The notes under the pieces were generated by a model that saw only the letters and a program-made list of their open reading frames with translations, was not told the DNA's origin and ran no database searches. From Candidatus Lindowbacteria bacterium RIFCSPLOWO2_12_FULL_62_27 (GTDB lineage Bacteria > Lindowbacteria > 2-12-FULL-62-27), in NCBI GenBank assembly GCA_001784175.1, contig MFPR01000004.1:248001-312000 (forward strand): DNA of 64,000 nt, read 5' to 3'. The position numbers and the translations under genes are program-made. Positions within the stretch are counted from its first letter, which is position 1. Each line of letters opens with the position of its first letter. Shown here piece by piece: positions 4,609-57,638 of this stretch.

Positions 4609-4610
4609 TC

Positions 4611-6017: not shown

Positions 6018-6030
6018 GGAGGAGAAACCA

Positions 6031-7752: not shown

Positions 7753-8505
7753 ATGGGCCACCCTCACCCCGACCCTCTCCCGCCAATGGCGGGAGAGGGG
7801 GAGAGTAGCACGCTGATCATTCCGGCGCACAATGAAGCGCGGATCATCGAGGAATCGATCCGGGCCGTCCGCGCGGCCCTGGCGGGGTGCGGGCGGCCGT
7901 GGGAGATTCTGATCGTGGACGACGGGTCGACGGACGGAACGGCCGAGCGAGCGGCGGCGGCGCTCGGCGACGCCGGGCGCGTCGCGCGGCTGGCGCCGAA
8001 CCGGGGCAAGGCCGGCGCGATCGTGGCGGGCGTTCAGGCCTGTGTGACGGAGCGGCTCGTTTTCACGGATGCGGACCTGTCGGTGCCGCCGGAATTTTTC
8101 GAGCCGGCCGCCGCGAAGCTCGACGCGGCCGACGTCGTGATCGGCTCGCGGCACCTGCCGGGCTCGAGGCTGGTCCGGCGCCAGCCGTGGCTCAGGGAGC
8201 GGTGCGGGGAAACATTCCGTATTCTCGTCCAACGATTTTTTCTGCCGCAGATCACGGATTTCACGTGCGGCCTGAAGGGATTCCGGACCGCCGCCGCCCG
8301 GAAGTTGTTCGACGGCCTGGCCTGCCTCGACTGGACGTTCGACGTGGAGGTGCTTCTGCGGGCGGAGCGGGCCGGCCTGCTGATTGCCGAGATGCCGGTG
8401 TCGTGGATCAACCGGCCGGACTCGCATGTGCGGCTGGTCTCCGCCATTGCCGGATCTCTCCGGTCGCTGTGGCGGCTCGGGAGTATTTATGGCTGGAGGA
8501 GGTGA
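7753..8505 (+). CDS. Family 2 glycosyltransferase (DPM1/DPG-synthase-like)
   Basis: The GT-A fold is clear: STLIIPAHNEARIIEESI, the nucleotide-binding IVDDGSTDGT, the metal-binding TDADLSVPPEFF, then DVVIGSRHLPGSR and DFTCGLKGFR. There is no C-terminal membrane domain, which resembles soluble dolichyl- or polyprenyl-phosphate sugar synthases that charge lipid carriers for GT-C enzymes. Two starts are possible: ATG 7753, adjacent to the upstream TAG, or ATG 7786. The first 15 or so residues (rich in Pro and His) come from a palindromic repeat, so the ancestral start has probably been replaced. The last codons carry the ribosome site of the next gene. Confidence 0.85.
   Translation: MGHPHPDPLPPMAGEGESSTLIIPAHNEARIIEESIRAVRAALAGCGRPWEILIVDDGSTDGTAERAAAALGDAGRVARLAPNRGKAGAIVAGVQACVTERLVFTDADLSVPPEFFEPAAAKLDAADVVIGSRHLPGSRLVRRQPWLRERCGETFRILVQRFFLPQITDFTCGLKGFRTAAARKLFDGLACLDWTFDVEVLLRAERAGLLIAEMPVSWINRPDSHVRLVSAIAGSLRSLWRLGSIYGWRR
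7760..7806. repeat. Palindromic repeat family A/D at the start of the GT2 gene
   Basis: CCCTCACCCC-GACCCTCTCCCGCC is followed by a 3-base loop and GGCGGGAGAGGG. The same core occurs at 44660-44706 in the same orientation, and inverted at 24146 and 25539. It overlaps the first codons of the glycosyltransferase gene. Confidence 0.8.
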
Positions 8506-8511
8506 ATTACC

Positions 8512-12560: not shown

Positions 12561-12627
12561 GCGAGGACTTTAACACAGAGAATACAGGATTTGCCATTTT
12601 GCGGGCTTCCATCTAGAATCGGGGACG

Positions 12628-14307
12628 ATGGAGAATCCGCAGGTGTCGGAGTTGTTGTCGGAGATTGGCGTGGTACTCGAGCTATTGGGCGAGAACACAT
12701 TCAAGGTGCGGGCCTATGAGAACGCCGCGCGCGCCGTGGACGCTTACACGGGCCGGATCGCGGAGCTGGACGAGAAACAGCTTCAGGAAATTTCCGGGAT
12801 CGGCAAGGGGCTTGCCGAGAAAATCCACATGTACTGTTCGATCGGGTATCTTCCCTATTACGAGGATCTGAAGAAGAAAATTCCGCGGGGGCTGGTGGAA
12901 ATGCTGAGAATCCCATCCCTCGGGCCGAAACGGGCCAAGCTGCTGTTTGACAAACTGAAGATCGACTCCGTCGCGGCGCTGGAGACGGCCTGCGCGGAGG
13001 GGCGGCTCGCGGCGCTGGAGGGATTTGGCGAGAAATCGCAGGCAAAAATCATGGAAGGGATCCGGATGCTCTCCACGTTCCGCGACCAGCACCTCCTGGC
13101 GGAGGTTCTGCCGCTGGCGGAGCGGCTGGTGGCGCATTTAAAAAAATGCAAGGCCGTCCGGCGCATTGAAATTGCCGGGTCGATCCGGCGGCGAAAGAAG
13201 CTGGTGAAGGACCTGGACATTGTGGTGAGTTCGGACCGCCCGGGCGACGTGTCCGAGGCTTTTGTCGGCGCCGACGGCGTGACGGAAGTGATCGCGCGCG
13301 GTGACACGAAAACGAGCGTGCGGCTGGCCGACAAAATCCAGGCGGACCTCCGGGTGGTGGCGGACGACGAATTCCCGTACGCGCTCCATCATTTCACCGG
13401 GTCCAAGGCCCACAACATTGCGCTGCGAAGTTTGGCGAAGGACCGCGGGCTCAAGATCAGCGAGTACGGGGTGTTCAAGGGGAAGAAGAGAATCGCGGCG
13501 AAGGACGAGGAATCGTTTTTCAAAATTTTCGGGCTTGCCTTCATCCCGCCGGAACTTCGGGAAGACCGCGGAGAGATTGCGGCGGCGGCCGAGGGCGGCC
13601 TGCCGGACCTCGTGACCGATCGGGACATCAAGGGCATTTTGCACGTTCACACGAACTGGAGCGACGGCATGGCGGACCTCGAGGTGATGGTGAAGGAGGC
13701 GGCGCGGCGCGGGTATCAGTATATCGCCATCACCGACCACTCCCAAACGTCATACTACGCGAAGGGCCTGCCGGTGGAGCGGCTGAAAAAGCAGATGGCG
13801 GAAATTGCGGCGATCAACAAGAAGCGTCCCGGCATCCGGGTCCTGGCCGGCAGCGAGGTCGACATTCTGCCGGACGGCCGTCTCGATTACGACGACGATC
13901 TACTGGCGAGCCTCGACGTCGTGATCGCGGCCGTCCACAGCCATTTCGGGATGAAACCCGACGAGATGACGAAACGCATCTGCCGGGCGCTCGAACATCC
14001 CGAGGTCGACATCCTGGCGCATCCCACCGGCCGGCTCCTGCTCACGCGGCCGGGCTACGAGTTCGACTGGGAGGCGGCGCTGAAGTGCGCGGCGCGGCAC
14101 GGCAAGAGCGTGGAACTCAACGCCAATCCGCAGCGGCTGGACATCGATCCGGTCCATGCCAAACGCGCGGCGCAGCTTGGCGTCAAAATCAGCATCAATC
14201 CCGACGCGCACCGGGTCGAGGGACTGGACGACATGCGGTACGGCGTGTGGGCGGCGCGGCGCGGGTGGCTGGGCCGGAAGGATATTATCAATACGGAGAA
14301 TTGGTGA
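12628..14307 (+). CDS. polX: DNA polymerase/3'-5' exonuclease PolX
   Basis: The 559-residue protein has the bacterial PolX architecture. Residues 1-110 hold helix-hairpin-helix DNA-binding segments (ISGIGKGLAEKI, IPSLGPKRAKLLFDKL). The polymerase palm carries LVKDLDIVVSS with metal-binding D195 and D197, followed by FPYALHHFTGSKAHNI. The C-terminal PHP domain starts with GILHVHTNWSDG (H339, H341) and continues with AITDHSQTSYYAKGL, AGSEVDI, AAVHSHFGM, LAHPTGRLL and INPDAHRVEG, the metal ligands of the exonuclease. Length is normal. The role is gap filling in base-excision repair. The receiver-PilZ gene follows 16 bases later. Confidence 0.95.
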   Translation: MENPQVSELLSEIGVVLELLGENTFKVRAYENAARAVDAYTGRIAELDEKQLQEISGIGKGLAEKIHMYCSIGYLPYYEDLKKKIPRGLVEMLRIPSLGPKRAKLLFDKLKIDSVAALETACAEGRLAALEGFGEKSQAKIMEGIRMLSTFRDQHLLAEVLPLAERLVAHLKKCKAVRRIEIAGSIRRRKKLVKDLDIVVSSDRPGDVSEAFVGADGVTEVIARGDTKTSVRLADKIQADLRVVADDEFPYALHHFTGSKAHNIALRSLAKDRGLKISEYGVFKGKKRIAAKDEESFFKIFGLAFIPPELREDRGEIAAAAEGGLPDLVTDRDIKGILHVHTNWSDGMADLEVMVKEAARRGYQYIAITDHSQTSYYAKGLPVERLKKQMAEIAAINKKRPGIRVLAGSEVDILPDGRLDYDDDLLASLDVVIAAVHSHFGMKPDEMTKRICRALEHPEVDILAHPTGRLLLTRPGYEFDWEAALKCAARHGKSVELNANPQRLDIDPVHAKRAAQLGVKISINPDAHRVEGLDDMRYGVWAARRGWLGRKDIINTENW

Positions 14308-14323
14308 TAGAGTAGCGACTGCG

Positions 14324-15100
14324 ATGCCGAAGATCATGCTGGTGGATCAGGACCGCGAATTGTTCGGTCTTTTGACGGAGCGGCTGAAAGAATATCGGAT
14401 CGAGGTGATCCATGCGGAGACGGGCGGAGATGGATTCAAGCGCGCGGTCCGCGACCGGCCGGACGTGATCATCCAGGAACTGGCCCTGCCCGACATCAGC
14501 GGGTTTTACCTCCTCGAAAAAATCAGGACCACCGAAAGCACGGGGCACATTCCCGTGATCGTGCTGACGCACCGCAAGGACGCGAAGCTGGAAGAGCGCG
14601 TGAAGCAGTACGGGGTCAGCCTTTTTGTGCGGAAGCCCTATCCCGTGCGGACGTTCATCGCCCGCGTCAAGGACCTGGTGGCGCAGCCCCACGCGCGGGA
14701 AACGGCGCCCAGGGCGACGGCCATCCCGACGCCGTCCGCCGTCTATCGCCTGGTGACGGAGCGCCTCGAAGTGGAAGTGCGAACCGACCATTACCTGATG
14801 CGGGGCCTGTCGAGCGGGATCAACGAGAACGGCATGGGGGCCCACGTGAACGTCCTGGAGAAACAGACCGAGGACGCGCCGGCGCTCGAGGCGGGGCAGC
14901 CCTGCACCGTGTATTTCCGGTCCATCAAGTATCCGCTGGTTCCGTGCCAGGGTCAGATTCTGAGGCTGGAGGAAAGCTGGGACCGGCGATACCGTCAGTT
15001 CGTGGCCATCAAGTTCCTGGACGAGGAATCGGGCGGCATGCCGAACGCTGACCGCCAGTCTCTGCGGGAGTGGATTGAGGCTCAGATCAAGCTCGGGTAG
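14324..15100 (+). CDS. Receiver domain-PilZ-like protein with Glu at the phosphorylation site
   Basis: The 258-residue protein starts at ATG 14324. Residues 1-118 form a response-regulator receiver: KIMLVDQDRELF (acidic D8, D10), IIQELALPDISGFYLLEKI, IPVIVLTHRKD and the conserved lysine in FVRKPYP. The phosphoacceptor position holds glutamate (E52, in QELALPD) instead of aspartate, so the domain is likely fixed in one state or not phosphorylated. Residues 140-255 resemble a PilZ domain (RGLSSGINENGMGAHV, then IKYPLVPCQGQILRLEE and FVAIKFLDE), which may bind c-di-GMP, although a clear RxxxR motif is not evident. It could link a second messenger to motility, pili or polysaccharide. Confidence 0.78.
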   Translation: MPKIMLVDQDRELFGLLTERLKEYRIEVIHAETGGDGFKRAVRDRPDVIIQELALPDISGFYLLEKIRTTESTGHIPVIVLTHRKDAKLEERVKQYGVSLFVRKPYPVRTFIARVKDLVAQPHARETAPRATAIPTPSAVYRLVTERLEVEVRTDHYLMRGLSSGINENGMGAHVNVLEKQTEDAPALEAGQPCTVYFRSIKYPLVPCQGQILRLEESWDRRYRQFVAIKFLDEESGGMPNADRQSLREWIEAQIKLG

Positions 15101-15106
15101 AACTCC

Positions 15107-16363
15107 TCAGACAATTTCATCCATCGGAACGAACAGCGCCGGAACATTCAGTTCATCGGCCGTGAGCGATCCGTGATTGGCGACTGAAAATCTTAGATAT
15201 TTTTCCTCTTTCGGCGGGGTGAACTCCACCCGCAGTTTCACGCCGGCGTGGAGGAGCAGCGTGTAATCTCCCAGCCGGCGCGCGTGGGCCGGAAGCGGTC
15301 CGGCGCCGCCGGCCAGCCGCCAGGACGTATGGCGCGGGACGACCGTGGCCTTGCCGCGGCATTTCAGGGCCAGCCACTTCTCAAGCGCGGGGTTCGGGAA
15401 GGCGCTCGAGTAGACATGGCCAAGCCGGCCGGAGGTTCCGAGGGCGACGAGTCCGGCGGTTTTTTTCTGCCGTTCAATTTCCATGTATGGAAAATGCAGG
15501 ATTCGGCCGGGCTGAAACACATTCTGGCCGTGATCGGACACCAGCGCGAAAAGCGTGCGGCGCTGGACGGCCCGGGGCAGGTGGCCGGCCAGCCACGCCA
15601 CGCCCTGTTCGATGTTGCGGATGGAAAACATGGCCTGGCTGGATTCGCCTCCGAATTTGTGCGTGCTTTCGTCCACGCCGTGCTGATAGAAATTGACGAT
15701 CCCGGCGCCGGCGCGGAGATAGTATTCGGCCTTTGCGAGACCCTCGATGTACTCGTCGTATCCTTCCCTCCGCATGTGGTCAGGGTAAATCATGTCCGAA
15801 ATGCCGGAGTGGATGATCGGGTGGGGCGAAATGTGGACGGCGCGGCGATTCCCAAGAAAGGTTTTGTCGAAGAGGGGCGGAACGCGCAGCCAGTGTTTGA
15901 TCGGCAGGCGGACGGACGTGAGCGGCCGGCCGACGCCGGGGATCTCCATTTTCAGGACGTCGACGAGCGTCCGGATCTCGTCGAAATAAATTTTGTGCCC
16001 CAAAATCCCGTGACGCGCCGGCGGCAGGCCCGTGTAGATCGAGCAGAGCGCCGTGCTGGTGATGGAGGGGAAGACAGACGTGAGGGCCAGTCCATGGGAT
16101 TTCAGGAGCCGGGCGAAAAGCCCGCCGCTTTTTTTGCAGGCTTCCAATCCGAGCGAATCGAGAAAATAAAAAAGGAGCCGGTCGAATTTCCGGCCGGCGC
16201 CGGAGGCGCTGATCCGGCCGGACAGCCACGGAATGTCCAGCGCGGCATAGGGTCTCGGCAGTTTGACGCCGAGCGCGCGCAGGGCCGTGGGAAGGACCAT
16301 GCAGATGCTATGGGGATAGTCCGGCGGGATCTGGCCGGGGCCGGGCGCCTGGACCGGATTCAT
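15107..16363 (-). CDS. Alkaline phosphatase superfamily (nucleotide pyrophosphatase/phosphodiesterase-like)
   Basis: The 418-residue protein carries the metal-binding start of the superfamily (RLLFYFLDSLGLEAC) and the nucleophile motif SVFPSITSTALCSIYTGLPPARHGILGH, where a Thr acts as nucleophile. It also has FYQHGVDESTH and the second metal site LVSDHGQNVFQPG. Such enzymes hydrolyse phosphodiesters, or transfer phospho-groups to lipids or glycans. Its start overlaps the FtsB-like gene by four bases (ATGA). Residues 49-56 (RISASGAG) are encoded by 23 bases identical to half of the repeat inserted in trmD (16196-16218), so part of the N-terminal region may be repeat-derived. Confidence 0.82.
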   Translation of the reverse strand: MNPVQAPGPGQIPPDYPHSICMVLPTALRALGVKLPRPYAALDIPWLSGRISASGAGRKFDRLLFYFLDSLGLEACKKSGGLFARLLKSHGLALTSVFPSITSTALCSIYTGLPPARHGILGHKIYFDEIRTLVDVLKMEIPGVGRPLTSVRLPIKHWLRVPPLFDKTFLGNRRAVHISPHPIIHSGISDMIYPDHMRREGYDEYIEGLAKAEYYLRAGAGIVNFYQHGVDESTHKFGGESSQAMFSIRNIEQGVAWLAGHLPRAVQRRTLFALVSDHGQNVFQPGRILHFPYMEIERQKKTAGLVALGTSGRLGHVYSSAFPNPALEKWLALKCRGKATVVPRHTSWRLAGGAGPLPAHARRLGDYTLLLHAGVKLRVEFTPPKEEKYLRFSVANHGSLTADELNVPALFVPMDEIV

Positions 16364-46180: not shown

Positions 46181-47578
46181 GTCGAGTGACAGCCGGCCTT
46201 CCTCTGACGCCGGCAAGCGCGCACGGATGACGAGCGGGGTGAGCGGCGCCGTTTCTACGCCGTCGAAACCATAAAATTTCTTGATCACGCGGAACGCGTG
46301 CGGGAACAGGCGGTAGTTTTGGATTTCCGGATACACCGGCGACGCCGGATGGTAGTGGGCGACCTCGCGGGCGATTCTGATCTGCTCCGCCAGCGCCGGG
46401 CCGTAATGGATGGTCTGATTGCCGGCCGTCGTGTGGAGCGACCCGATGATGAATCCCAGCACGACGGCGAGGCTCGCCGCATAGGCGGCCTGCGCGAGCC
46501 GGCGGAACGGAATGGCGCTGAAAGCGACCCATAAGAAATAGAAGGAACAAATCCACGTGGCGTTGTAATAATGCGGATGGCCGTAGGTCCGGGTCAGGCC
46601 GTTGAGGAGGCACTGCGCCGCGAGCGCGGCGGCGCAGATGAGGGTAGCGTGGGATTCCGCATCGAGGTCTTCGCCGGTTTTCAACCGGGCCCAGACCCGG
46701 CGGGCCGCCTGCGCGATTCCCAGCCACACAAGCGGTATGGCAATCCATGTAACGGCGTGAAAAAAGGAAACCCAGCCGGCGGACGGCCAGCGTTCGCCCA
46801 GAAAATAGTCCATGTCAAAAGACGAAAAAAACCGGCCGCCCATGAGCGGAAACAGCCAGCCCTTCCATGGCGACCCTTCCTGCAAGACCGTTTCGGGTTG
46901 GCCGGAGAACACCTTCATGAGGTAGGGAACCGTCAGCAGGCCCGATACCAAAACGATGCCGGGAAGGTTCGCGCCGCGCACGCGCAGCCGGGCCCTCTGC
47001 GCCCATGCGAAATGCGCGACCACCGCCACAATCCAAGGGACGCTCATGAGATGCGTGAGGAACATCCCCGTCAGCGCGAATCCCGCCAGCCACAATTTCC
47101 ATGCGGTGGGCCGAACGCAAAAAGCAAGATACGCGGCGGCGGACAGCGCCGCCAGCGGGATGAGAAAGGGATTGTCCCAGAGCTGGCGATGGTACAGCCA
47201 GAGACAGGGCGAAAGGAGCGCCAGCGCGCCGGCGGGCGGATCAAGCGACCGGCAGAGGGCCGCGATCCAGACGAGCGCGACCGCCGTGATCAGCGTCATC
47301 AGGAGCGCCTTCAGCCGCACGAGATCCACGAGGTCGTCCGTCACGTGGAGGAGCGCGGTGTAGGTCCAGAGCGGAAACGGGCCGTACAGAATGCCGCGGG
47401 AACCCATGAGGCCGTGGGACGGGATCATGCCCGACTCTTTGCAGAGCATCGCCAGTTCGACGAGTTTCGGTTCGTCGTTGATCCAAGGCGCGTCGCCCGG
47501 CCAGATCAGCGGGACAAGCCCGAGGATTGCGAGAAGCAGAATCAGGATCGAAAGCGAAAAACGGCGACGGGCGTCCAT
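46166..47578 (-). CDS. GT-C glycosyltransferase (family 39-like)
   Basis: The 470-residue protein has about ten membrane segments. The first external loop holds WPGDAPWINDEPKLVELAMLCKESG, with the acidic pair, then GILYGPFPLWTYTALLH, a family 39 pattern. GHPHYYNATWICSFYFLWV is unusual for the family. I choose ATG 47578; a longer frame to 47638 runs into the upstream gene region. The last residues (VMPQ) and the stop come from repeat H copy 2, so the natural C-terminus may have been lost. Confidence 0.8.
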   Translation of the reverse strand: MDARRRFSLSILILLLAILGLVPLIWPGDAPWINDEPKLVELAMLCKESGMIPSHGLMGSRGILYGPFPLWTYTALLHVTDDLVDLVRLKALLMTLITAVALVWIAALCRSLDPPAGALALLSPCLWLYHRQLWDNPFLIPLAALSAAAYLAFCVRPTAWKLWLAGFALTGMFLTHLMSVPWIVAVVAHFAWAQRARLRVRGANLPGIVLVSGLLTVPYLMKVFSGQPETVLQEGSPWKGWLFPLMGGRFFSSFDMDYFLGERWPSAGWVSFFHAVTWIAIPLVWLGIAQAARRVWARLKTGEDLDAESHATLICAAALAAQCLLNGLTRTYGHPHYYNATWICSFYFLWVAFSAIPFRRLAQAAYAASLAVVLGFIIGSLHTTAGNQTIHYGPALAEQIRIAREVAHYHPASPVYPEIQNYRLFPHAFRVIKKFYGFDGVETAPLTPLVIRARLPASEEGRLSLDVMPQ

Positions 47579-47691
47579 GGAAGTCTCGTTTATCAAACTT
47601 GGGAACAAAAACCCAGCATGACTTTCCATCGGCCGCATTTTCGACCCTGTGGGACTCGACTCAGGGAGCCGTTCAAAGTTATTGTGCGGGC

Positions 47692-50259
47692 GTGGTCAAA
47701 TGCATCGCGATCTTTTGCGGGATGGCGATATGGCTCTACGCCGAGGGCGGCGCGGCCGGCGCGGATCCGACCGGGTATCTGAGGGCGGACGGGCGGCGGC
47801 TGGTCGACGAAGACGGCGAAACCGTGATGTTGCGCGGGATCGGCGTGAGCCGCGCGCCCGGGTTGGACATCATCCGCGCGCGGGAGGATTTGCTCAAGGC
47901 CGCCGCGCTGGGCGCGAACAGTGTCCGGCTGGATATCGATCCCTCGTGGTTCGCGGGCGACACCGCGCCCGGGGCGTTTGATTTCATCGACTCGTTTGTC
48001 ATGGTCGCCGCGCGGCAGAATCTCCGTGTGATTCTCAGCATGGACTGGCGGCCGGCCGACGACTTCACGGACGAGCCCGGCTGGGAGGATCCGGAACAGC
48101 AGGAGGAACTGGTCGGGCTGTGGATGACGATCGCGCGGAGATACCGGGACCGGCCGGAGATCGGCGCGTACCAGTTGATCCGGGCGCCGGCGCCGGAGAG
48201 CGCGCGCGAGTATGCGTTTTTCATTCAATATCTGATCGACAGCGTCCGGGAGGCCGACACGGAGCACCTGATCCTGGTGTCGGAGCCGAAAACCGGGAAC
48301 GGGCTATTTGAATTTGACGGCGTGCAGCTTGTCTATCCCATCGACCGCAACCTCGCCTACACGTTTTCGGAGTACGAGCCTGAAGCGTTCACGCGCCAGG
48401 GGCTGGACGACCGGCCGGAGGGGATTGTCTGGCCGGGAGACATTGTGGTGTCGGTGACGGAACTAGGCGAATGGAGCCGCCGGGCGGTTCAGGACAGCGT
48501 CAAGTCCACGCCGCTGAAGATCGAAGCGATCGCGCCGGATCACGCCGACTACGTCGCGCCCCGCGTCTACGTGCTGGGCGTCGGCCGCGGCCGGTTCGAG
48601 CGGATTTTGCTGGAGGAGGTGGCGGTCTTCCAGCGCGAGCCGGGCGACCTGCCGATTTTCAGCGACACCTTCAGCGCGATCCAGTCCCTCTGGCACATCG
48701 ATCCTCCGGGGGGTCGTGTCATGCTGGAACGCGGCGCGGCGGCCGGGGAGGGAAGCCTGATTCTCGAATCAAAAGGGACGATGCTTACCGCACAGCCATT
48801 CACGCCGCTGGACGCGCGGCGCATTCCCAAAGCCACGGTGAACCGGCGGTACCGGCTGACCGCGCGCGTATACGCGGGCGAGACGGCCGAGGCGGGAATC
48901 GGGCTCGTATTTTTGAGCGAGGACAAATATTTTTCAGAACCGCGGGACCTGCGCGCCCGCCTGCAGGACCGCATCGAATGGTCGCGAAAGGCGAACGCGC
49001 CGATTTTGCTCACGGAGTTTGCCGCGCCGAAACACGCGCCGGACCACATGGAAATTCAATGGATGAATGCGGTGGTCAGCGCGTGCGAGACCTACGGCGT
49101 GTCGTGGCAGTACCGGACGATGCGCGAGTACGATGATCCGGCGAGTCTGTCCGACCGGCAGGTCTACGGCTTGCTCTTCGGCCCGGCGGACGCCCCGGCC
49201 GACAGTTTCACCGTCTGGCCGGAACTTCAGAATTTTCTCCTGCAATCCTACAAAGTCCATTCGTTCGCCGAGGAGACTTTGAAGCTGGTCGAATCGCATC
49301 TCGCGGAAGGATCGCCGGCCAATCCGGTTTCGCCGCCGGCCGCCGGCTGCTGGGTCGGCGCGCAGGTTCAGGATTCCCCGCTGTCGGCGGCGCCGGCCGG
49401 GACGTTCGACGCCATCATGGACATGACCCGCAAGCTGGGCCGGCTGCCCGCGTGGGTACCGGTGTTCCGGCCCTGGGCCAACGCGCCGGGAGAATGGACG
49501 GCGTTTCCGGAGGATCATTTCCGGGACATTTCCGCGGGCGGGTCCACGCCGTTTCTGACCTGGGAGTCGCGCTGGGGTCTCGGCGAAATTTCATCGGCGA
49601 TGGTGCTGGAAGGATACGCCGACACGTACATCCGGGACTGGGCCGACGCCGCGCGCCGGTACGGGAAACCGTTTCTTCTCCGGCTCACGCGCGGAATCGA
49701 ATCGTCCGCCTACCGGCACGTCCAGAGCATTTTTGACGCGAGGGGCGTGACGAATATTTCGTGGATGTGGTCGCCGGCGGCGACACGGAGGTCAGCCGTC
49801 CCCGCCCACCGTCCGACAGGGATGTCGGACGCTCAGGCGGAGGCGGTGACGAGCGCACAGGACACGACGCATGTGGAGGACTTCGACTGGCCGTGGGATT
49901 CGCGCGTGGACTGGATCGGCCTCGGCGTCTATGACCGGCCGACGCCCGGCGGCGACGGCGAGGCAGAAGGCTTATTTCCGGCGGCGGAGGTCCGGGCGCA
50001 GGTGGACGCGGTCCGGAAATTTCACACGCCGATCTGTCTGGCCGAAATCGGCTGCGAGTCCATCCGGGGCCAGGCCGAATGGTGGGTCGACGCGCTACGG
50101 AAACTTCAGACGCCGGACCTCGCGCCGATTCGCGCGATCGTGCTGATGGAAAGCCCGCTGTTCGGCGGCGCCGCGCAGGCGGATTTCACGTTACGCAGCG
50201 GCAGCCTCTACTTCATCCACAAGGAACTCGCCAACCCGTATTTCGTGGGCGGGGACTAG
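47692..50259 (+). CDS. Secreted two-module glycoside hydrolase-like protein (GH5-like + GH26-like)
   Basis: The 855-residue protein starts at GTG 47692 with a signal peptide (IAIFCGMAIWLYAEGGAAGA). Residues 25-500 resemble a GH5 cellulase: GYLRADGRRLVDEDGETVMLRGIG, then AALGANSVRLDID, with a likely nucleophile E442 in LLTEFAAPKH. The usual Asn-Glu-Pro acid/base motif is replaced by IRAP (residues 163-166), and a beta-rich insert lies between. Residues 545-850 resemble a GH26 mannanase: PFLTWESRWG, GYADTYIRDWADAARRYGKPFLLRL, ISWMWSP, VDWIGLGVYDRP and a likely nucleophile E785 (LAEIGCES), but the HEMN motif is absent. Activity is doubtful in both modules. Repeat G encodes residues about 695-717. 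Confidence 0.75.
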   Translation: MVKCIAIFCGMAIWLYAEGGAAGADPTGYLRADGRRLVDEDGETVMLRGIGVSRAPGLDIIRAREDLLKAAALGANSVRLDIDPSWFAGDTAPGAFDFIDSFVMVAARQNLRVILSMDWRPADDFTDEPGWEDPEQQEELVGLWMTIARRYRDRPEIGAYQLIRAPAPESAREYAFFIQYLIDSVREADTEHLILVSEPKTGNGLFEFDGVQLVYPIDRNLAYTFSEYEPEAFTRQGLDDRPEGIVWPGDIVVSVTELGEWSRRAVQDSVKSTPLKIEAIAPDHADYVAPRVYVLGVGRGRFERILLEEVAVFQREPGDLPIFSDTFSAIQSLWHIDPPGGRVMLERGAAAGEGSLILESKGTMLTAQPFTPLDARRIPKATVNRRYRLTARVYAGETAEAGIGLVFLSEDKYFSEPRDLRARLQDRIEWSRKANAPILLTEFAAPKHAPDHMEIQWMNAVVSACETYGVSWQYRTMREYDDPASLSDRQVYGLLFGPADAPADSFTVWPELQNFLLQSYKVHSFAEETLKLVESHLAEGSPANPVSPPAAGCWVGAQVQDSPLSAAPAGTFDAIMDMTRKLGRLPAWVPVFRPWANAPGEWTAFPEDHFRDISAGGSTPFLTWESRWGLGEISSAMVLEGYADTYIRDWADAARRYGKPFLLRLTRGIESSAYRHVQSIFDARGVTNISWMWSPAATRRSAVPAHRPTGMSDAQAEAVTSAQDTTHVEDFDWPWDSRVDWIGLGVYDRPTPGGDGEAEGLFPAAEVRAQVDAVRKFHTPICLAEIGCESIRGQAEWWVDALRKLQTPDLAPIRAIVLMESPLFGGAAQADFTLRSGSLYFIHKELANPYFVGGD
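49776..49842. repeat. Nested-hairpin repeat family G, copy 2 (in frame 2)
   Basis: Same element as 45365-45431, with about six mismatches. Here the first base is codon position 3 of the host gene, so the same DNA is read as RRSAVPAHRPTGMSDAQ. The outer stem is partly worn (GGCGGAGG for GGCGGGG). Confidence 0.9.
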
Positions 50260-50325
50260 CACGACAACGCTATTTTTTCGACTATGGGCCAAGCCGACGG
50301 CCAAGGGTTCTCCTTCTTGGCACGC

Positions 50326-51333
50326 ATGAATCCGAACCAGATGACGATTTACGAGACCGAGGACGGGAAGGTTCGTGTCGAGGTTTTGTTCAAGGATGAA
50401 AACGTTTGGCTGACTCAAAAGCTGATGGCCGGGCTGTTTGAATGTTCCGTTGATAACGTCGCCCTCCATTTAAAAAACATCTTCTCCGAACGGGAACTGG
50501 ATGAAAAGTCAGTTACCGAGGAATCCTCGGCAACTGCCGCTGACGGCAAGAAGTACAGGACAAGATATTACAGCCTGGAAGCCATCATAGCCGTCGGTTA
50601 CAGGGTCAACACGGCCCGCGGCGCCCAATTCCGGACGTGGGCGACTGAGCGGCTGAAAAATTATATATTGAAGGGCTTCGCGATAGATAAGGACCGGTTT
50701 ATCAAGGGGTCGAAATTTGACGCGAGATATTTCGACGAGCTTCTCGAAGAGATCCGGGAGATCAGGGCCAGCGAGCGCATGGCCTATCAGAAAATCACCG
50801 ACATCTATGCGACGTCGGTGGATTATTCGCCGAACACGGCAGAAGCGGAGAGGTTCTTCGCGACAGTGCAAAATAAATTGCATTTCGCGATAACGGGAAA
50901 GACGGCGGCGGAGATCATCGCTTCGCGGGCGCGCAAGGACAAGCCCCACATGGGGCTAACCACTTGGCGGAAGGCGCCGAAGGGGAAGATATTGCCTTTG
51001 GACATTCGCCTCGCGAAAAATTATCTGAAAATTGAGGAAATGAAAAAGCTGAACCACATCGTGAACATGTATTTGGATTACGCCGAGTTCCAGGCCGGCA
51101 AGGGTCGCCTGATGCGCATGCGCGACTGGGCGGAGAAACTGGACGCGTTCCTCAAGTTCAACGAGCAGGACATTCTATTGGACAAGGGGAAAGTCTCCCA
51201 TGACGTCGCCATCGCCTTGGCCGAAAAACAATATGAAAGCTTCCGCATTGAGCAGGACAGGCGTTTCGAATCCGATTTCGATCGGGAAGTCAAAAAATTG
51301 TTGCGGAAAAAGAATAACAAGCCGGAGGATTGA
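50326..51333 (+). CDS. rhuM: RhuM-family protein
   Basis: The 335-residue product matches the RhuM family: TIYETEDGKVRVEVLFKDENVWLTQKLMAGLF, then YYSLEAIIAVGYRVNTARGAQFRTWATERL and RYFDELLEEIREIRASERMAYQKITDIYA. RhuM proteins are found in pathogenicity islands and beside restriction systems; their activity is not known. The sequence uses more A/T than its neighbours, which suggests transfer. I start at ATG 50326, since the family begins near MTIYETEDG; earlier ATGs (50284) are possible. Its last codons hold a GGAGG that serves as ribosome site for the cas1 remnant, which starts three bases after the stop. Confidence 0.88.
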   Translation: MNPNQMTIYETEDGKVRVEVLFKDENVWLTQKLMAGLFECSVDNVALHLKNIFSERELDEKSVTEESSATAADGKKYRTRYYSLEAIIAVGYRVNTARGAQFRTWATERLKNYILKGFAIDKDRFIKGSKFDARYFDELLEEIREIRASERMAYQKITDIYATSVDYSPNTAEAERFFATVQNKLHFAITGKTAAEIIASRARKDKPHMGLTTWRKAPKGKILPLDIRLAKNYLKIEEMKKLNHIVNMYLDYAEFQAGKGRLMRMRDWAEKLDAFLKFNEQDILLDKGKVSHDVAIALAEKQYESFRIEQDRRFESDFDREVKKLLRKKNNKPED

Positions 51334-51336
51334 CGC

Positions 51337-51672
51337 ATGTTCGAACCGCCGAAGCCCATCACCATCAAGGAACGGTTCTCTCTCCTGTTCTTGGAGCGGG
51401 GGAACTTGGACGTCATCGACGGCGCCTTCGTGGTGGTGGACAAGACCGGCGTTCGGACACAGATACCCGTCGGCGGGGTTTGCTGTTTGATGCTGGAGCC
51501 AGGCATCAGGGTGTCTCATGCGACGGTAGCTTTGGCGGCCCGGGTGGGGTGTCTTCTGGTGTGGGTGGGGGAGGCTGCGGTTCGACACGTTCCCCACGCG
51601 CGTGGGGATGAACCCCTTTCGCGTTCTTTCGCGTCTTTTCGTAGTTATTACTGGGAGCAGAAAAATATTTGA
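51337..51672 (+). pseudogene. cas1: Truncated type I-E cas1, joined to a CRISPR repeat
   Basis: Residues 1-83 follow the start of Cas1 of type I-E systems: ITIKERFSLLFLERGNLDVIDGAFVVVDKTGVRTQIPVGG, then MLEPGIRVSHATVALAARVG and LLVWVGEAAVR. A complete Cas1 has about 300 residues. Homology stops at about 51583 and the frame runs into a CRISPR repeat (read as VPHARGDEP) and unrelated sequence to a stop at 51672. The catalytic Glu/His/Asp region is missing, so no integrase activity is possible. Most likely a deletion joined cas1 to a downstream CRISPR array, removing the rest of cas1, cas2 and the leader. Confidence 0.88.
51587..51615 (+). CRISPR. Single type I-E CRISPR repeat (relic)
   Basis: The 29 bases carry the palindrome TCCCCACGCG/CGCGTGGGGA and the GATGAACC end of type I-E repeats. 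No second copy follows at spacer distance, so this is a lone repeat, not a working array. It starts four bases after the last cas1-like codon. Confidence 0.8.
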
Positions 51673-51686
51673 CACTTCGGCAAGGT

Positions 51687-51770
51687 CGTCACCCCCGCGA
51701 AAGCGGGGGTCCAGTCGCCGTATCCGAGCGGGGGACAGCTTCTGGATTCCCGCTTTCGCGGGAATGACGG
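51687..51770. repeat. Interspersed repeat I, copy 1
   Basis: CGTCACCCCCGCGAAAGCGGGGGTCCAG and CTGGATTCCCGCTTTCGCGGGAATGACG form two hairpins that also pair with each other at their ends. This is a widely seen type of intergenic bacterial repeat. The gap 51673-51996 holds only this, its second copy and no gene. Confidence 0.88.
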
Positions 51771-51856
51771 GCGGGACATGTCAGACATTATCTGCTCTCC
51801 TTAGTAAGGGGTTTCCAGTCTGGGTGTCGGGTATTTCTGCTCCCCGTAGTAATTCT

Positions 51857-51965
51857 CGTCACCCCCGCGAAACCTGTCCCAGCATGTCGTAAGCGGCGAG
51901 CGGGGGTCCAGATACCCGTATCCGACTCGGCTGCTGCCTGGATTCCCGCTTTCGCGGGAATGACG
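51857..51965. repeat. Interspersed repeat I, copy 2, with a 28-bp insert
   Basis: Same element as 51687-51770, but the first hairpin is split by about 28 bases (CCTGTCCCAGCATGTCGTAA and following) between CGCGAAA and CGGGGGTCC. It lies just 3' of the adenine deaminase gene. Confidence 0.85.
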
Positions 51966-51996
51966 AGTGAAACACTACACCCGCCGCCCTCCCTGC

Positions 51997-53727
51997 CTAC
52001 TCCACCCAAAGATCGACGTGTTTGAAGGCTTTGGCGTCGACGAGGCCGCAATCGGTGATTTTGAGTTCGGGGATGACCGGCAGCGCGAGGAAGGCCAACG
52101 TCATGAAGGGGTCGCCGATGGGCGAGCCGAGCCGGTCGCGGAGCGCGTGGAAGAGGCGGTCCATCGCGTCGGAGACTTCCGGGAATGTTTTATCGCTCAT
52201 GAGTCCCGCGATGGGCAGCGGGAGTTGTTCGAGGACGGCCTCATTTTCGACGACGGCGATCCCGCCGCCGATTTTCCTGATTCGGATGATGGCTTTCATG
52301 AGATCGGCGTCGTTCATGCCGACGGCGATGACGTTGTGAGAATCGTGGGCGATGGTCTGGGCCCACGCGCCAGACTTCAAGCCAAATCCGCGAACAAATC
52401 CCACGCTGACGTGCCGCGCCTGGTGGCGGTCGACCACCACGATCTTGGCGATGTCCTTGTCCGCGTCCGGCACCGCCTCCTGCCCGCGGACCGTCGGCTC
52501 GACGTGGACTTCGCGCGTGTAGAGCGACTTGGGAATGATCTCGATCACACGGAGTTTCCCGTGCCGGACGGGCACGTAAAAGTCGGACGGCTCGAGCCAC
52601 TTGATGTTGACGGTGCTTCGGAGATGCAGGTCCTTGCGGACGGGCGGCGTATAGAGGAGATGGCCGTCACGCGCGACCAGCTCGCCGTTCTTGAAGACCA
52701 TCTCGACATTGAAAGACCGGAGATCATCCACGACCAGGAGGTCGGCGATGTAGCTGGGCGCGACGGCACCGAGATGTTCGAGTTTGAAATAGTGAGCGGT
52801 ATTGTAGGAAGCCATCTTGACCGCGAGGATCGGATCGAGTCCGAGCCGGATGGCCTTGCGGACAATCGCGTCCATGTGACCGTGGTCCCGGAGCGTGTGA
52901 GGGTGGCGATCGTCGGTCACGAACATGAACCGGGTGTGGTTGCGTTCTGTGACAAGGGGGAGTAGATCCTCAAGATTTTTGGCGAGGCTGCCCTCGCGGA
53001 TCATCACATGCATCCCTCGCGCCAGTTTTTCGGCCGCCTCCTCCAGGCTGATGCACTCGTGGTCGGATTTGATGTTGGCCGCAATATAAGCATTGAGGGG
53101 CTTACCGCGCAGGGCCGGCGCGTGGCCGTCGATGCGTTTGCCCATCGACTGGGCCAGGTCGATTTTTTCGAGGACGCTTTTGTCGGCGTTGATCACGCCG
53201 GGGTAATTCATCATTTCTGCGAGACCCACGACCCACTTATTCTGGAAAAAACTCCAGAGATCAAAGGCCGACAGTTTCGACCCGGCCGTTTCGAGGTCCG
53301 TGGCGGGGACGCAGGACGGCAGACACACAAACACGGTGAGCGGCTGATATTTCGAGGATTCGAGGATGAACCGGATGCCGTCCAGTCCGAGGACGTTGGC
53401 GATTTCGTGCGGGTCGATGATGATGGTGGTCGTCCCGTGCGGCACCACGCACCGGGCGAACTCGCCGACCGTGAGCATGGTGCTTTCGACGTGGAGGTGC
53501 CCGTCGAGGAGTCCGGGCACGAGGATTTTGCCTTTGAGATCGATTTCCTTTTCGCCGCGGTATTTTTCGGCCGACAGCCCGGCGATCTTGCCGCCCCAGA
53601 CCGCGACATCCAGTCCCTCGAGAATCCGGCCGTCGAACACATCGAGGACGTTCGCGTTCTTGAACACCAGTTGAGCCTGTTCCGCGCCGCCCGCGACGCG
53701 GATGAGATGTTCCAGTGAATCAATCAT
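51997..53727 (-). CDS. ade: Adenine deaminase
   Basis: The 576-residue protein is an adenine deaminase of the amidohydrolase family, which converts adenine to hypoxanthine. Metal-site segments are PGLLDGHLHVESTM and IIDPHEIANVLG. Family markers include CLPSCVPATDLET, LAEMMNYPGV, KRIDGHAPALRG, SDHECISLEEA and FVTDDRHPHTL. The C-terminal substrate-site region has TIAHDSHNVIAVGMND. Length is normal. It is likely monocistronic, flanked by the accessory island and by the caspase-like gene. Role: purine salvage. Confidence 0.95.
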   Translation of the reverse strand: MIDSLEHLIRVAGGAEQAQLVFKNANVLDVFDGRILEGLDVAVWGGKIAGLSAEKYRGEKEIDLKGKILVPGLLDGHLHVESTMLTVGEFARCVVPHGTTTIIIDPHEIANVLGLDGIRFILESSKYQPLTVFVCLPSCVPATDLETAGSKLSAFDLWSFFQNKWVVGLAEMMNYPGVINADKSVLEKIDLAQSMGKRIDGHAPALRGKPLNAYIAANIKSDHECISLEEAAEKLARGMHVMIREGSLAKNLEDLLPLVTERNHTRFMFVTDDRHPHTLRDHGHMDAIVRKAIRLGLDPILAVKMASYNTAHYFKLEHLGAVAPSYIADLLVVDDLRSFNVEMVFKNGELVARDGHLLYTPPVRKDLHLRSTVNIKWLEPSDFYVPVRHGKLRVIEIIPKSLYTREVHVEPTVRGQEAVPDADKDIAKIVVVDRHQARHVSVGFVRGFGLKSGAWAQTIAHDSHNVIAVGMNDADLMKAIIRIRKIGGGIAVVENEAVLEQLPLPIAGLMSDKTFPEVSDAMDRLFHALRDRLGSPIGDPFMTLAFLALPVIPELKITDCGLVDAKAFKHVDLWVE

Positions 53728-53764: not shown

Positions 53765-55660
53765 TCAAGGCACGGCAACGACCCGGAATCCCACGAACTG
53801 GCCCCGGTAGGCGGCTTTCAGGCCGCCCCGGTAGGCGGTGGCCATGCGTTCGGTCGTGTTGTTCCAGGATCCGCCCTTGCAGGCCCTCACCCAGCGGTTC
53901 TTGTCCGCGCCCGCGCCTTCCGCCGGACCTGTCGGATTTTTGGCCTTGCCGGTCGGCAGGCTCGCGAGATGCACGTCGCTCAGCCATTCCCAGACATTGC
54001 CGGCCATGTCATGCAGGCCGAACGGATTGGGCGGGAAACTGCCGACGGGCGCCGTCCGCTGGTTGTCCCACTGGGACCCGCACCCCTGGCAGTTGGCCAG
54101 GTTCGCGCCGGCCTCGCCGGTGCTCGTGGCGTACTCGAAATTCTTGCCGCCCCGCCCGGCGTAGACCCATTCGGCTTCCGTCGGGAGCCGGTAGGTCCGG
54201 CCGCTCATCTTGGAGAGCCATTCGCAGAACGTGTTGGCCTGGTTCCAGCTCACGCTGACGATGGGGCCGTTGTCGTCGGGCGAGTACCGGGACACGGGTT
54301 CGTCGCCGAAACTATTTTTCTCCCAGTTGAATTCGAGCCCGGTCTCTTCGAGGAATTTCCTCCACTGCCCCACCGTGATTTCGTATTTGCCCATCCAGAA
54401 TCCGTCGATCGTGACGTGGTAATCCGGCGTCAGGTCGAACGCGGCGCCGGACAGCGCGACCATGTCGATGTTGAGGTCGCCGGCCGATTCGGTGTAATCT
54501 TTGAAATCCCTGGGTGCTTTCGATTTTTTCGAGGGCCGGGGTGACGGCTTTTCTTTTTCCTTGGCCGGCGTCGGAGGCGGAGGTTCGCCGCCCAAGGCCG
54601 TGACGATTTCGGCGGGCAAGCCGGCCGAAGCGGTCCGGTCTTCCGGTTTGCCTTTCCCTGCGCCGGCCAGGACAAACTGCACGGGCGGGGCGGCGGAGGC
54701 GATCCTGTCGTCCGAGAGGGCGGCGTCGAGAATCACGAGGACGTGTTTCGCCGGGATCATATCGATCATTTCCATCAGTCTCGAAACGGAGATGGCGGAA
54801 GAAAAGTAATCGGCCGTCGGGCAGTCGGCGGGGATCAGATATCCCTTGCGCCTGCCGCCTCGCAGCTCTTGGGTGTATCCATGTCCGGCAAAATAAAGGA
54901 CGACGCGGTCGGCCTCGCTGACTTCGGCGGGCAGGCGTGTGGTGAGGAGGGACTCGATTTCTTTTCGCGTCGCCTGCTTGTTGAGCAGAATCTGCACCGA
55001 CTCAAACCCCATTTTTTTGAAGAGCCGGTCCTTGACCGCCTCCGCGCTTTTCTCGGCGAACGACAGCGCCGGCCACTGATCGTACTGGTCGATCCCGATG
55101 CATACGCCCCAGCTTTTCTTGTACGGCTGGTCCGGTCGCGCCGCAGGTTCCGCCGGCGGTTTCGGCGCCGCGACAGGCGGAGGCGGGGGCGGTGGTGGCG
55201 GAGGCGGGGGCGGAGGAGGAGGAGGTGGTGGCGGGGGAGGCGGCGGCGATGCCTTGCCGGTTTTCAGCGAGGCTGATTTCACCCACCCTGCGATGATGAC
55301 TCTGACGTAGTCATTATCCTGGACGACCATTTCCGGCCCGGACCCGCGAAAGATCAACCCGAGGATGCGCCCGTCCGGTTTTTCTTCTTTCATCGGGAGT
55401 CTCGCCGCGACTTGTGTGCGGCCGCCGGGTCCGGGGATCAACTTGAAGGCCGAAGCGTGGACCCAAGTCTGAAGTTGAATCTTCGACCAGTCGCCAAGCA
55501 CTTCCGTCCGCTTGACCGTGACTTCGCGTTCGAGGCTCGCCATGAGCCGCCCGTCCGGCTCTTCGTAGACGTTCGACGGCTCTTTGGTCGAGTAAATCTC
55601 GTCGACGGCAAACACCGGAAGACCAATTCCCAATCCGAGAATCGTGAGAAGGATTCGCAT
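53765..55660 (-). CDS. Caspase-like domain (Cys lost) fused to a formylglycine-generating-enzyme-like domain
   Basis: The 631-residue protein has a signal peptide (residues 1-18), an SH3-like N-domain (VYEEPDGRLMASLEREVTVKR), and a run of 24 prolines (139-162). A caspase/metacaspase-like domain (about 183-330) has SWGVCIGIDQY and the histidine H260 in LYFAGHGYT. The catalytic Cys of ILDACxSG is alanine (A314, ILDAALSDD), so it should be inactive as a protease. The C-terminal 235 residues form a sulfatase-modifying (FGE-sulfatase) domain: FWMGKYEITVGQWRKFLEETG, VSWNQANTFCEWLSKMSGRTYRLPTEAEWVYAGRGG, GLHDMAGNVWEWLSD and RACKGGSWNN. It lies divergent from a TPR-CPBP protease gene. Confidence 0.88.
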   Translation of the reverse strand: MRILLTILGLGIGLPVFAVDEIYSTKEPSNVYEEPDGRLMASLEREVTVKRTEVLGDWSKIQLQTWVHASAFKLIPGPGGRTQVAARLPMKEEKPDGRILGLIFRGSGPEMVVQDNDYVRVIIAGWVKSASLKTGKASPPPPPPPPPPPPPPPPPPPPPPPPVAAPKPPAEPAARPDQPYKKSWGVCIGIDQYDQWPALSFAEKSAEAVKDRLFKKMGFESVQILLNKQATRKEIESLLTTRLPAEVSEADRVVLYFAGHGYTQELRGGRRKGYLIPADCPTADYFSSAISVSRLMEMIDMIPAKHVLVILDAALSDDRIASAAPPVQFVLAGAGKGKPEDRTASAGLPAEIVTALGGEPPPPTPAKEKEKPSPRPSKKSKAPRDFKDYTESAGDLNIDMVALSGAAFDLTPDYHVTIDGFWMGKYEITVGQWRKFLEETGLEFNWEKNSFGDEPVSRYSPDDNGPIVSVSWNQANTFCEWLSKMSGRTYRLPTEAEWVYAGRGGKNFEYATSTGEAGANLANCQGCGSQWDNQRTAPVGSFPPNPFGLHDMAGNVWEWLSDVHLASLPTGKAKNPTGPAEGAGADKNRWVRACKGGSWNNTTERMATAYRGGLKAAYRGQFVGFRVVAVP

Positions 55661-55673
55661 CACACATAATAGA

Positions 55674-55712
55674 TACCCCCCTTTATCCCCCCTTGTAAAG
55701 GGGGGAAAGAGG
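55674..55712. repeat. Palindromic C/G-run repeat (family E), divergent gap
   Basis: CCCCCC...TTGTAAAGGGGGGAAAGAGGGG forms a hairpin in the 91-base gap between the caspase-like gene and the divergent TPR-CPBP gene. Any promoters for these two genes must surround or overlap it. Confidence 0.7.
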
Positions 55713-55751
55713 GGTTGACCCCTTTTCATCCCCCGGTTACATTCATCCGCC

Positions 55752-57638
55752 ATGTTCCTGACCGCCGCGCTGTTTGCCGTTTCGAGTCTCGCCTGGGGGC
55801 CCGACCTGCGCTTTGACACCGCATACGCGCTGGAACTCGACCGCCAGTTTGATTCGGCGCGCATTTTGTATCGGCAGGCCGTCACGTCGCCCACCGACCC
55901 GATCGAGGCGCACCTCGGACTTTTGCGCGTGGCCGAGGACGATCCGACGGAAAGCGTTCCGGTCTACCCGCCGGATTCCGCGCATCCCCGCGGACATCTC
56001 CTGCACCTGTATTCCCGCCGCCTGGCATTTCAGGAAGATCCTGCGGACACGTGGTGGGTTCTTCCCGACAGCGACATCCGGGCGCAGATCCGGCAGGATA
56101 GCAGCCTCATCCACGCATGGGTGATTCTTCTCGCGATTTCCTCCAAGAACAATGACGCCTTCGAGCGCCTTGTGGAGAGCCGAGATTCGTTTATCGGCCA
56201 CCCGCTGTTTGACCATGCATTGCTGAGCGCGGCGATGAGCAGGAATATCGACACAGGGTGGCTTGCACGACTGATGAAAGTATATGAAAGCCGGCCGATG
56301 TGGGGGCTCTTTCATTCCTACTGGTGTCATGCTCACAGAAACGCTCCGGATCATGACACGCTCCTTCGCGCCGCAGCGGCGACCGGCGACAGAATGAGGG
56401 ACGACGCGTTATTTCGAATGGCGATCAAAGCGATGCCCAAAGACACGCCGCAGGCCAAGGCGCATCTGGAGGAGATATTGAGCCAGGGATGGAATAACAG
56501 CACCTATGGCGCAGTCCTCGCCCTGGCCGGTGTCCACCGCAGACTCGGCGACGAAACCGCCGCTCTCCGCGTGATGGAGGATTACGAGCGCCGCTACGGC
56601 GCGCGATACGTCAGCATGGGAAGCGAGCTGGCCGAGGCGGCGGAAAAAGCCGGGTGCCCGGACACGCACGTTGCCGCGTACTGGCGCATGGCCCTTGATC
56701 ACCACAAAGGAACGAGACGAGCCGCATTCAGCGACGGCAAATTGCATATCCGCCACCAGTTGGCCCTCGCGCTGATCAAGAGCGGCCGGCCGGGCGAGGC
56801 GCTGGAGCAGGTGGATCAGGCGCGGGGTGAAGCCTCCGGCCGGATTGAGAAACTGATGGTGTTTGCGCTGCAGTGCCACGCCTACATCGTGTGGCAGCCG
56901 GCGGTGCTGACGGCGTGGATTCTGACTTACACGCTGGCCGTGCTGGTATTTCCGATCACGCTGATCTATTTCGTTCGCCTGCCCGGAACGACATCCGGCA
57001 GCAAGCTCGCGGCGGCGACGGTGACGACCGCGATCCTGTGCCTGCAGACGGCGGCGACGCCGGACTTTGGCGCCGATTTCTGGACCTGGTCGGCCTTTTC
57101 CGCCGCGCGGAATTTTCTGCTGGTCGCGACCTCCCTGACGATTCTCGCATCCGAGGGCATCCGGCATCGGTTCGGATGGAAGGGCCTCGTGGAGGCAGGC
57201 GCCGTCGTTCTGATCGGCGGCGCGTGGTCATACGCGCTGTACGGGATCGAGCGCCCGGAGATGTCGCCGATCCTCAAAACCGTCATGGATCTTCCCAGCG
57301 AGTTTGGAATTCCGCTCGGGCCGGGCTGGCCAGCGGAGAAAACGTTGTCGTTTGTCGTGTCGGCGGCGTTCACCGAGGAACTCCTGTGCCGCCTTCTGCC
57401 GGTGGCCATCGCCGTCCGATCATTCGGCGGCCGGCCCGCCGCGCAGGGGGCGGCGCTGGCGCTGGCGACGCTCGCGTGGGCCGCGGCGCACGCGGGGATG
57501 GTGACGCCGGAATGGTGGAAATTCGTTCAGGTGACGGGCCTCGGCGCGCTTTTGAGCGTGCTGTTTCTCCGCCGCGGGTTCGTTGCGTGCATGGCCGCGC
57601 ACGGGATTTTCAACGCCATTGCCGTTTTCGTCCCATGA
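55752..57638 (+). CDS. TPR protein with CPBP intramembrane protease domain
   Basis: The 628-residue protein starts with a signal-like stretch (FLTAALFAVSSLAWG). Residues 20-380 form an alpha-helical repeat solenoid of TPR type (SARILYRQAV, then ALALIKSGRPGEALEQVDQARG). From 390 there are about eight membrane segments with the CPBP (CAAX protease and bacteriocin-processing) motifs: EELLCR (EExxxR) in FTEELLCRLLPVAI, WAAAH (a variant of FxxxH) and HGIFN (HxxxN). The solenoid would lie outside the cytoplasm. The stop overlaps the ABC ATPase start (ATGA), so it is coupled with the exporter genes. Substrate is unknown. Confidence 0.82.
   Translation: MFLTAALFAVSSLAWGPDLRFDTAYALELDRQFDSARILYRQAVTSPTDPIEAHLGLLRVAEDDPTESVPVYPPDSAHPRGHLLHLYSRRLAFQEDPADTWWVLPDSDIRAQIRQDSSLIHAWVILLAISSKNNDAFERLVESRDSFIGHPLFDHALLSAAMSRNIDTGWLARLMKVYESRPMWGLFHSYWCHAHRNAPDHDTLLRAAAATGDRMRDDALFRMAIKAMPKDTPQAKAHLEEILSQGWNNSTYGAVLALAGVHRRLGDETAALRVMEDYERRYGARYVSMGSELAEAAEKAGCPDTHVAAYWRMALDHHKGTRRAAFSDGKLHIRHQLALALIKSGRPGEALEQVDQARGEASGRIEKLMVFALQCHAYIVWQPAVLTAWILTYTLAVLVFPITLIYFVRLPGTTSGSKLAAATVTTAILCLQTAATPDFGADFWTWSAFSAARNFLLVATSLTILASEGIRHRFGWKGLVEAGAVVLIGGAWSYALYGIERPEMSPILKTVMDLPSEFGIPLGPGWPAEKTLSFVVSAAFTEELLCRLLPVAIAVRSFGGRPAAQGAALALATLAWAAAHAGMVTPEWWKFVQVTGLGALLSVLFLRRGFVACMAAHGIFNAIAVFVP

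Follow-up and report, generated by a model that had tools for sequence, protein, structure and literature searches.

How did the start of a type I-E cas1 gene come to be joined to a single CRISPR repeat, directly behind an intact rhuM gene, in the genome of Candidatus Lindowbacteria bacterium RIFCSPLOWO2_12_FULL_62_27? The window, by which we mean the whole 64,000-nucleotide stretch analyzed (G000:C4:248001-312000), belongs to a 4.39-Mb draft genome (G000) of 44 contigs that is 94% complete. We consider it likely that a type I-E CRISPR-cas locus suffered deletions on both sides, leaving this dead remnant, and that rhuM outlived the operon. The features at and around the locus are as follows (window coordinates).

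47527 to 50259, plus strand: left flank, GH5/cellulase-like gene, a 910-residue frame (PF00150, E = 4.4e-10)
50284 to 51333, plus strand: intact rhuM gene, probable start ATG at 50326 (PF13310; PADLOC candidate defense family PDC-S05)
51337 to 51585, plus strand: 5' fragment of type I-E cas1, codons 1 to 83 (Cas1e profiles, a solved E. coli-type Cas1, and alignment)
51586 to 51588, plus strand: joint, consisting of a C that would fit the first base of a leucine codon at position 84 and an AC that is either the first two bases of the repeat or filler
51587 to 51614, plus strand: single type I-E repeat with its 26-base core at 51589 to 51614 (genome and window search, array comparison)
51613 to 51646, plus strand: dispersed intergenic element of the host, directly adjoining the repeat and present in the genome in two further copies
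51645 to 51852: inverted-repeat elements of the right flank, with arms at 51645-51663/51834-51852 and 51687-51721/51735-51769
51997 to 53727, minus strand: right flank, adenine deaminase gene (PF13382, E = 2.2e-62)

The identity of the cas1 fragment rests on several comparisons. The 111-residue frame at 51337 to 51672 matched the Cas1e profile TIGR03638 (E = 7.6e-25) with 87.7 bits, which is under the whole-protein cutoff of 215.6, and we therefore regard it as a Cas1e fragment. It also matched the PADLOC Cas1e model (E = 1.2e-25) and a solved E. coli-type Cas1, with residues 4 to 85 aligning on residues 4 to 85 (E = 4.8e-33). The part retained corresponds to residues 1 to 83 of about 305 and presumably ends ahead of the catalytic residues of Cas1. 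For comparison, we used 86 type I-E Cas1 loci, of which 80 came from genomes (those with the highest scores among 579, hence not randomly sampled) and 6 from plasmids. The closest Cas1e to the fragment among these best 80 of 579 relatives was that of a Methanolobus locus (L011; 85% identity over residues 6 to 83), and the viral contigs searched contained no relative of the fragment. In all 86 aligned sequences, the residues VR are followed by L, F, or V and then by Y. In the window, codon 83 completes VR at 51585, the next bases are CAC and GTTCCCC (CGA CAC GTTCCCC), and the fused frame stays open from the cas1 fragment through the repeat. The Cas1e matches and the continuation seen in every relative bear out the cut at residue 83 that a preliminary description of this DNA had placed there.

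The intact 26-base core of the repeat, GTTCCCCACGCGCGTGGGGATGAACC, occurs once in the window, where 0 copies are expected, and once in the 4.39-Mb genome when up to 3 mismatches are allowed. Neither a second repeat nor a spacer was found beside it, in agreement with its earlier description as a lone repeat, and a core identical to it was found in two other type I-E loci (L026 and L046). The consensus places AC before GTTCCCC in 3 of the 65 arrays examined; thus, the window repeat may be a full 28 bases long, starting at 51587. The gap between the end of Cas1 homology and the repeat is 1 base for a repeat starting with AC and 3 bases for the 26-base core alone, and both distances lie within the four bases originally reported. 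On its other side, the repeat is followed by the 34-base dispersed element with no spacer in between, indicating that array material stops at the 3' edge of the repeat. The inverted-repeat elements of the right flank are likewise dispersed in the genome. More broadly, positions 51613 to 51966 contain several dispersed intergenic repeats nested in one another, some of them palindromes of the type CGTCACCCCCGCGAAAGCGGGGGTCCAG, and further copies occur in other parts of the genome; no tRNA was found in the window.

A deletion running from cas1 through cas2 and the leader into the array would be the simplest account of this joint and the one that best explains it. We favor it because the cas1 fragment and the type I-E repeat keep the order and orientation of an intact locus. 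Deletion is a well-known route by which CRISPR-cas loci are lost. The end of such a deletion on the cas1 side would be set by homology alone, and its end on the array side would carry no position in the original array.

The joint could conceivably have been made by Cas1-Cas2 itself if a broken chromosomal end inside cas1 had taken the part of a prespacer and been joined to the edge of the repeat that faces the leader, deleting what lay between. The joint lies 0 to 2 bases from the 5' edge of the repeat, the known site of attack by Cas1-Cas2; with the 61-base units of most arrays here, a random end should fall within one base of such an edge with a chance of about 3/61, or about 1 in 20. This is, however, one event only, with no other joint between cas1 and a repeat among the 86 loci, and the flushness is itself uncertain by two bases, the start of the lineage's own repeat being ambiguous. 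We therefore regard an origin by Cas1-Cas2 as very improbable. We judge an assembly or binning error to be similarly improbable. CRISPR arrays are hard to assemble and the genome is a draft of 44 contigs, but the joint is internal to a contig of 507,730 bases and is flanked by host genes that are neighbors in the relative G002, and there is no second cas1e or repeat copy with which this one could have collapsed. An intact copy of cas1 or of the repeat elsewhere, which would have spoken against the deletion by the terms of the preliminary description, was looked for genome-wide and not found.

If the locus is a remnant, what became of the rest of the system? Cas7e, Cas5e, Cas6e, and Cas2e, the proteins covered by our search, gave no match in the genome or in its two relatives, and the same queries matched in 6 of 6 control genomes. 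Cas3 (TIGR01587) gave no match over the cutoff in 3 of 3 genomes; weak matches were obtained also in 14 of 14 control genomes. The genome contains no other type I-E cas1, and two other cas1 genes in it pass the family cutoff. Thus, cas3 (at its cutoff), Cascade genes (cas7e, cas5e, and cas6e), and further arrays with the same repeat, all suggested earlier as things to look for in the rest of the genome, were searched for there and not found. Lacking both the Cas1 catalytic domain and Cas2, the remnant should be unable to acquire spacers; with one repeat, no spacer, and no Cas6e, it should be unable to make crRNA; and with no Cas3 and no Cas7e, Cas5e, or Cas6e found, it should be unable to interfere.

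These absences also bear on whether the 111-residue frame or the lone repeat might still have a use, whether as a truncated Cas1 domain, as a regulatory hairpin RNA, or otherwise. Co-translation with rhuM would be possible for the frame, which begins 3 bases behind that gene and runs open through the repeat as far as 51672. However, no type I-E partner was found in the genome, no Rfam family matched in the window, and the fragment, which stops short of the catalytic residues, carries substitutions at conserved sites. Our search detected none of the Cascade genes that it covered, which led us to set aside a regulatory-RNA reading of the repeat, and continued use of either element strikes us as exceedingly unlikely.

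Two other CRISPR loci are present in the genome.

G000:C6:44000-63000 (5520 to 15679): type V-B locus (L150) with a HerA-like ATPase gene, a Cas4-Cas1 fusion, Cas12b, and an array
G000:C4:365000-384500 (4532 to 11770): Cas9d locus (L151) with cas1, cas2, cas4, and a 4-repeat array

The Cas12b of the first locus is long (1,541 residues; NF033949, E = 2.1e-288), and its array has at least nine repeats; a 116-residue frame lies where cas2 would be expected. The Cas9d of the second scored 452 bits against a cutoff of 375 (NF049971), and its locus shares the contig of the remnant, 70 to 75 kb farther on. Since both loci have their own adaptation genes and arrays, the organism would have lost its type I-E locus and not CRISPR immunity, and the description of the joint as a fossil of immunity loss does not hold. 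In this genome, from a phylum represented by three genomes in the analysis, class 2 systems (Cas12b and Cas9d) stand next to the relic of a lost class 1 system, which makes it a useful case.

The good preservation of the fragment had been taken as the sign of a recent event. There are 0 stops and 0 frameshifts across its 83 codons, and its third-position GC content (0.78) is similar to that of neighboring genes. On the other hand, it departs from 2 of the 40 strongly conserved columns in the alignment with the 86 relatives, which is more than in 78 of them; 52 relatives show no departure at these columns, 26 show one, and 8 show two or more. The intact reading frame thus stands, and the state of the fragment as a whole weakly suggests a moderately recent loss without proving recency.

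We compared the site with the two relatives. G002 has homologues of both flanking genes: that of the GH5-like gene ends 77 bases from that of the adenine deaminase gene (84% identical to the gene in the window), and the two are convergent as in the window. The window has 1.7 kb in this interval, which must then be either extra in this lineage or lost in G002. Both flanking genes are present in G001 but are not adjacent there, the region being rearranged. No type I-E cas1 occurs in G001 or G002, the two family members compared, and no close relative with an intact I-E locus was found, with these two genomes compared at the site. A cas6e tail upstream of rhuM had been suggested by eye (GQGFSFLAR); with a profile of 82 real tails, it ranked 873 among 100,864 windows, with a negative score, and was rejected. 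As no remnant of cas6e lies upstream of rhuM, a full operon at the site is something that we infer and do not see. Beyond the right flank, the window contains a 709-residue frame (53765 to 55894, minus strand) that combines a caspase domain and an FGE-sulfatase domain with a long run of prolines.

Could the segment then have arrived broken, with rhuM, the cas1 fragment, and the repeat entering as foreign DNA and a complete I-E locus never present in the lineage? The lack of any trace of cas6e or other upstream cas genes would fit such an arrival, as would the adjacency of the flanking genes in G002 and the wide occurrence of RhuM, which 54 of 395 genomes from a different phylum (that of the Nitrospirae locus L077) contain at E = 1e-60 or better. 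Yet no direct repeat of at least 12 bases was found framing the segment as a target duplication would, and the joint between cas1 and the repeat still requires a deletion somewhere. We regard arrival in a broken state as unlikely, though a more serious contender than an assembly error, and continue with the remnant of a locus lost in place. For that remnant, the single deletion originally proposed remains the simplest account of the joint between cas1 and the repeat, but it does not account for the locus as a whole: cas3 (at its cutoff) and the Cascade genes searched for are also absent, and cas1 is preceded by rhuM and then by the GH5-like gene.

The rhuM gene ends 3 bases before the cas1 ATG. 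Its product matched PF13310 over profile positions 1 to 249 of 252 (E = 3.6e-100; 334.9 bits against a gathering score of 33.7) and PADLOC PDC-S05 (E = 1.5e-139), and it is the only part of the locus likely to do anything, its activity being predicted from these matches. Genes of this type are frequently associated with defense. RhuM was placed in restriction-modification (R-M) operons and proposed as a toxin in a 2013 paper (PMC3710099). It is a common gene, and most of its occurrences have no link to type I-E cas genes: of 30 RhuM loci kept from the 395-genome search, 0 have a type I-E cas1 within about 1.5 kb, and one (L121) has a distant Cas1 match (27% identical). Two RhuM relatives were found in the viral contigs searched. 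Among the 86 Cas1e loci, two have RhuM-like genes directly upstream of cas1: L077, where a full rhuM overlaps the cas1 start, and L085, where a Fic gene and a RhuM-Fic fusion lie between cas6e and cas1. In a RhuM tree from which the short rows L085, L092, L093, and L094 were dropped, L077 groups with L116 (support 100/99), a locus without type I-E cas1, and not with the window RhuM, whose placement on a long branch is unsure. A common origin of the rhuM-cas1 pairs of the window and L077 is thus unsupported, and RhuM probably reached the cas1-proximal place more than once.

That place proved to be unusual in related operons. The joint upstream of cas1 carries at least 250 bases of extra DNA in 34 of 83 loci (31/78 after cas6e, 3/4 after cas5e, and 0/1 after cse1), compared with 3 of 307 at four other joints together (cas7-cas5, 0/81; cas5-cas6e, 0/77; cas1-cas2, 1/81; cse2-cas7, 2/68). 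The Fisher test for this difference (P = 1e-22) overstates independence because the loci are the best 80 of 579 and related loci share some insertions. The cse1-cse2 joint (13/49 with at least 250 bases) was left out of the count because the cse1 model was built on one divergent seed and covers only part of the protein; the sparse joints were also left out (cse2-cas6e, 0/4; cas6e-cas7e, 0/4; cas5e-cse1, 0/1; cse1-cas7e, 1/1). On the plus strand, the strand covered here, 50 frames were listed, some of them cas7 and cas5 genes. When 30 were compared with Pfam, 27 matched a family and three did not. Where assigned, the extra DNA before cas1 consists mostly of toxin-antitoxin or nuclease genes, with families including UPF0175/Phd with DUF3368, MazE with PIN, TacA with GNAT, DUF433 with DUF5615, PIN, KilA-N, Bro-N, Schlafen-AlbA, DUF1016/YhcG, PDDEXK_3, DUF559, DUF29, HTH, and Fic. 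Judged by family names, several of these insertions look like complete toxin-antitoxin pairs. Loci with such genes before cas1 include L017, L019, L025, L027, L050, L054, L056, L058, L070, L076, L078, L084, and L085.

We tentatively propose, as a possibility that we hold with less than even confidence, that toxin-antitoxin and other defense genes, complete toxin-antitoxin pairs included, dock recurrently at one place in I-E operons, the joint between the effector genes and cas1, and that cargo docked there can outlast the operon, as rhuM would have done here. If cargo resists deletion or adds a defense of its own, the retention of rhuM while cas genes were lost on both sides is what would be expected. 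A full-text search, whose coverage left out most subscription journals, returned no paper describing insertions at the effector-cas1 joint of type I-E systems. Immunity loci appear not to encode typical antitoxins (a 2012 statement, PMC3506569), and numerous toxin-antitoxin modules are associated with CRISPR systems (a 2023 report, PMC10910872). A general link between toxins and CRISPR is thus already known; the position-specific excess was not found in print. If general, the docking place would contrast with the 2012 statement and would offer a testable example of defense genes in one operon with the two CRISPR modules.

The position of rhuM in this putative docking place makes a cargo gene that outlived its operon the likeliest history. 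A type I-E locus would have lain between the GH5-like gene and the adenine deaminase gene, and rhuM, a free-living candidate defense gene, would have settled directly in front of cas1. Later losses would have removed everything upstream, from cas3 to cas6e, and a deletion from cas1 codon 83/84 into the array would have taken the remainder of cas1 together with cas2, the leader, and every repeat except one. A single deletion, running from codon 84 of cas1 to a repeat edge, would fit this loss on the right. The upstream genes may have been lost in the same period, lost earlier, or never brought along. That a complete locus once stood at the site, as well as the order and number of the deletions, is part of this proposed history. 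The relic itself is ordinary; its value lies in an intact accessory gene beside the break, at the place where related I-E operons often carry toxin-antitoxin or nuclease genes.

The remnant can be set beside several known systems. Isolated or orphan cas and CRISPR loci (Zhang and Ye 2017, PMC5294841) are likewise partial loci left after loss of the rest; in that work, isolated cas loci have at least three cas genes, whereas the window retains less, a quarter of one cas gene and one repeat. The Omnitrophota type I-E locus L058 also combines a truncated cas1 with an extra gene (KilA-N) before cas1. There, however, the deletion (4258 to 4740) fuses cas1, at about codon 138, with the C-terminal portion of cas2, and the leader, an array of 14 repeats, and the adjoining effector genes are kept; this cas1-to-cas2 deletion is independent of that in the window. 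L077 (Nitrospirae GWC2_42_7; rhuM-cas1-cas2-array) resembles the window in having a full-length rhuM immediately upstream of a type I-E cas1 but differs in that cas1 and cas2 are intact and its RhuM was probably a separate arrival. Finally, the RhuM of R-M operons is, as the window RhuM would have been in the proposed history, a putative toxin-like accessory gene embedded in a defense operon; in PMC3710099, it accompanies R-M and PrrC-like genes, whereas the RhuM described here stands beside the remnant of a cas locus.
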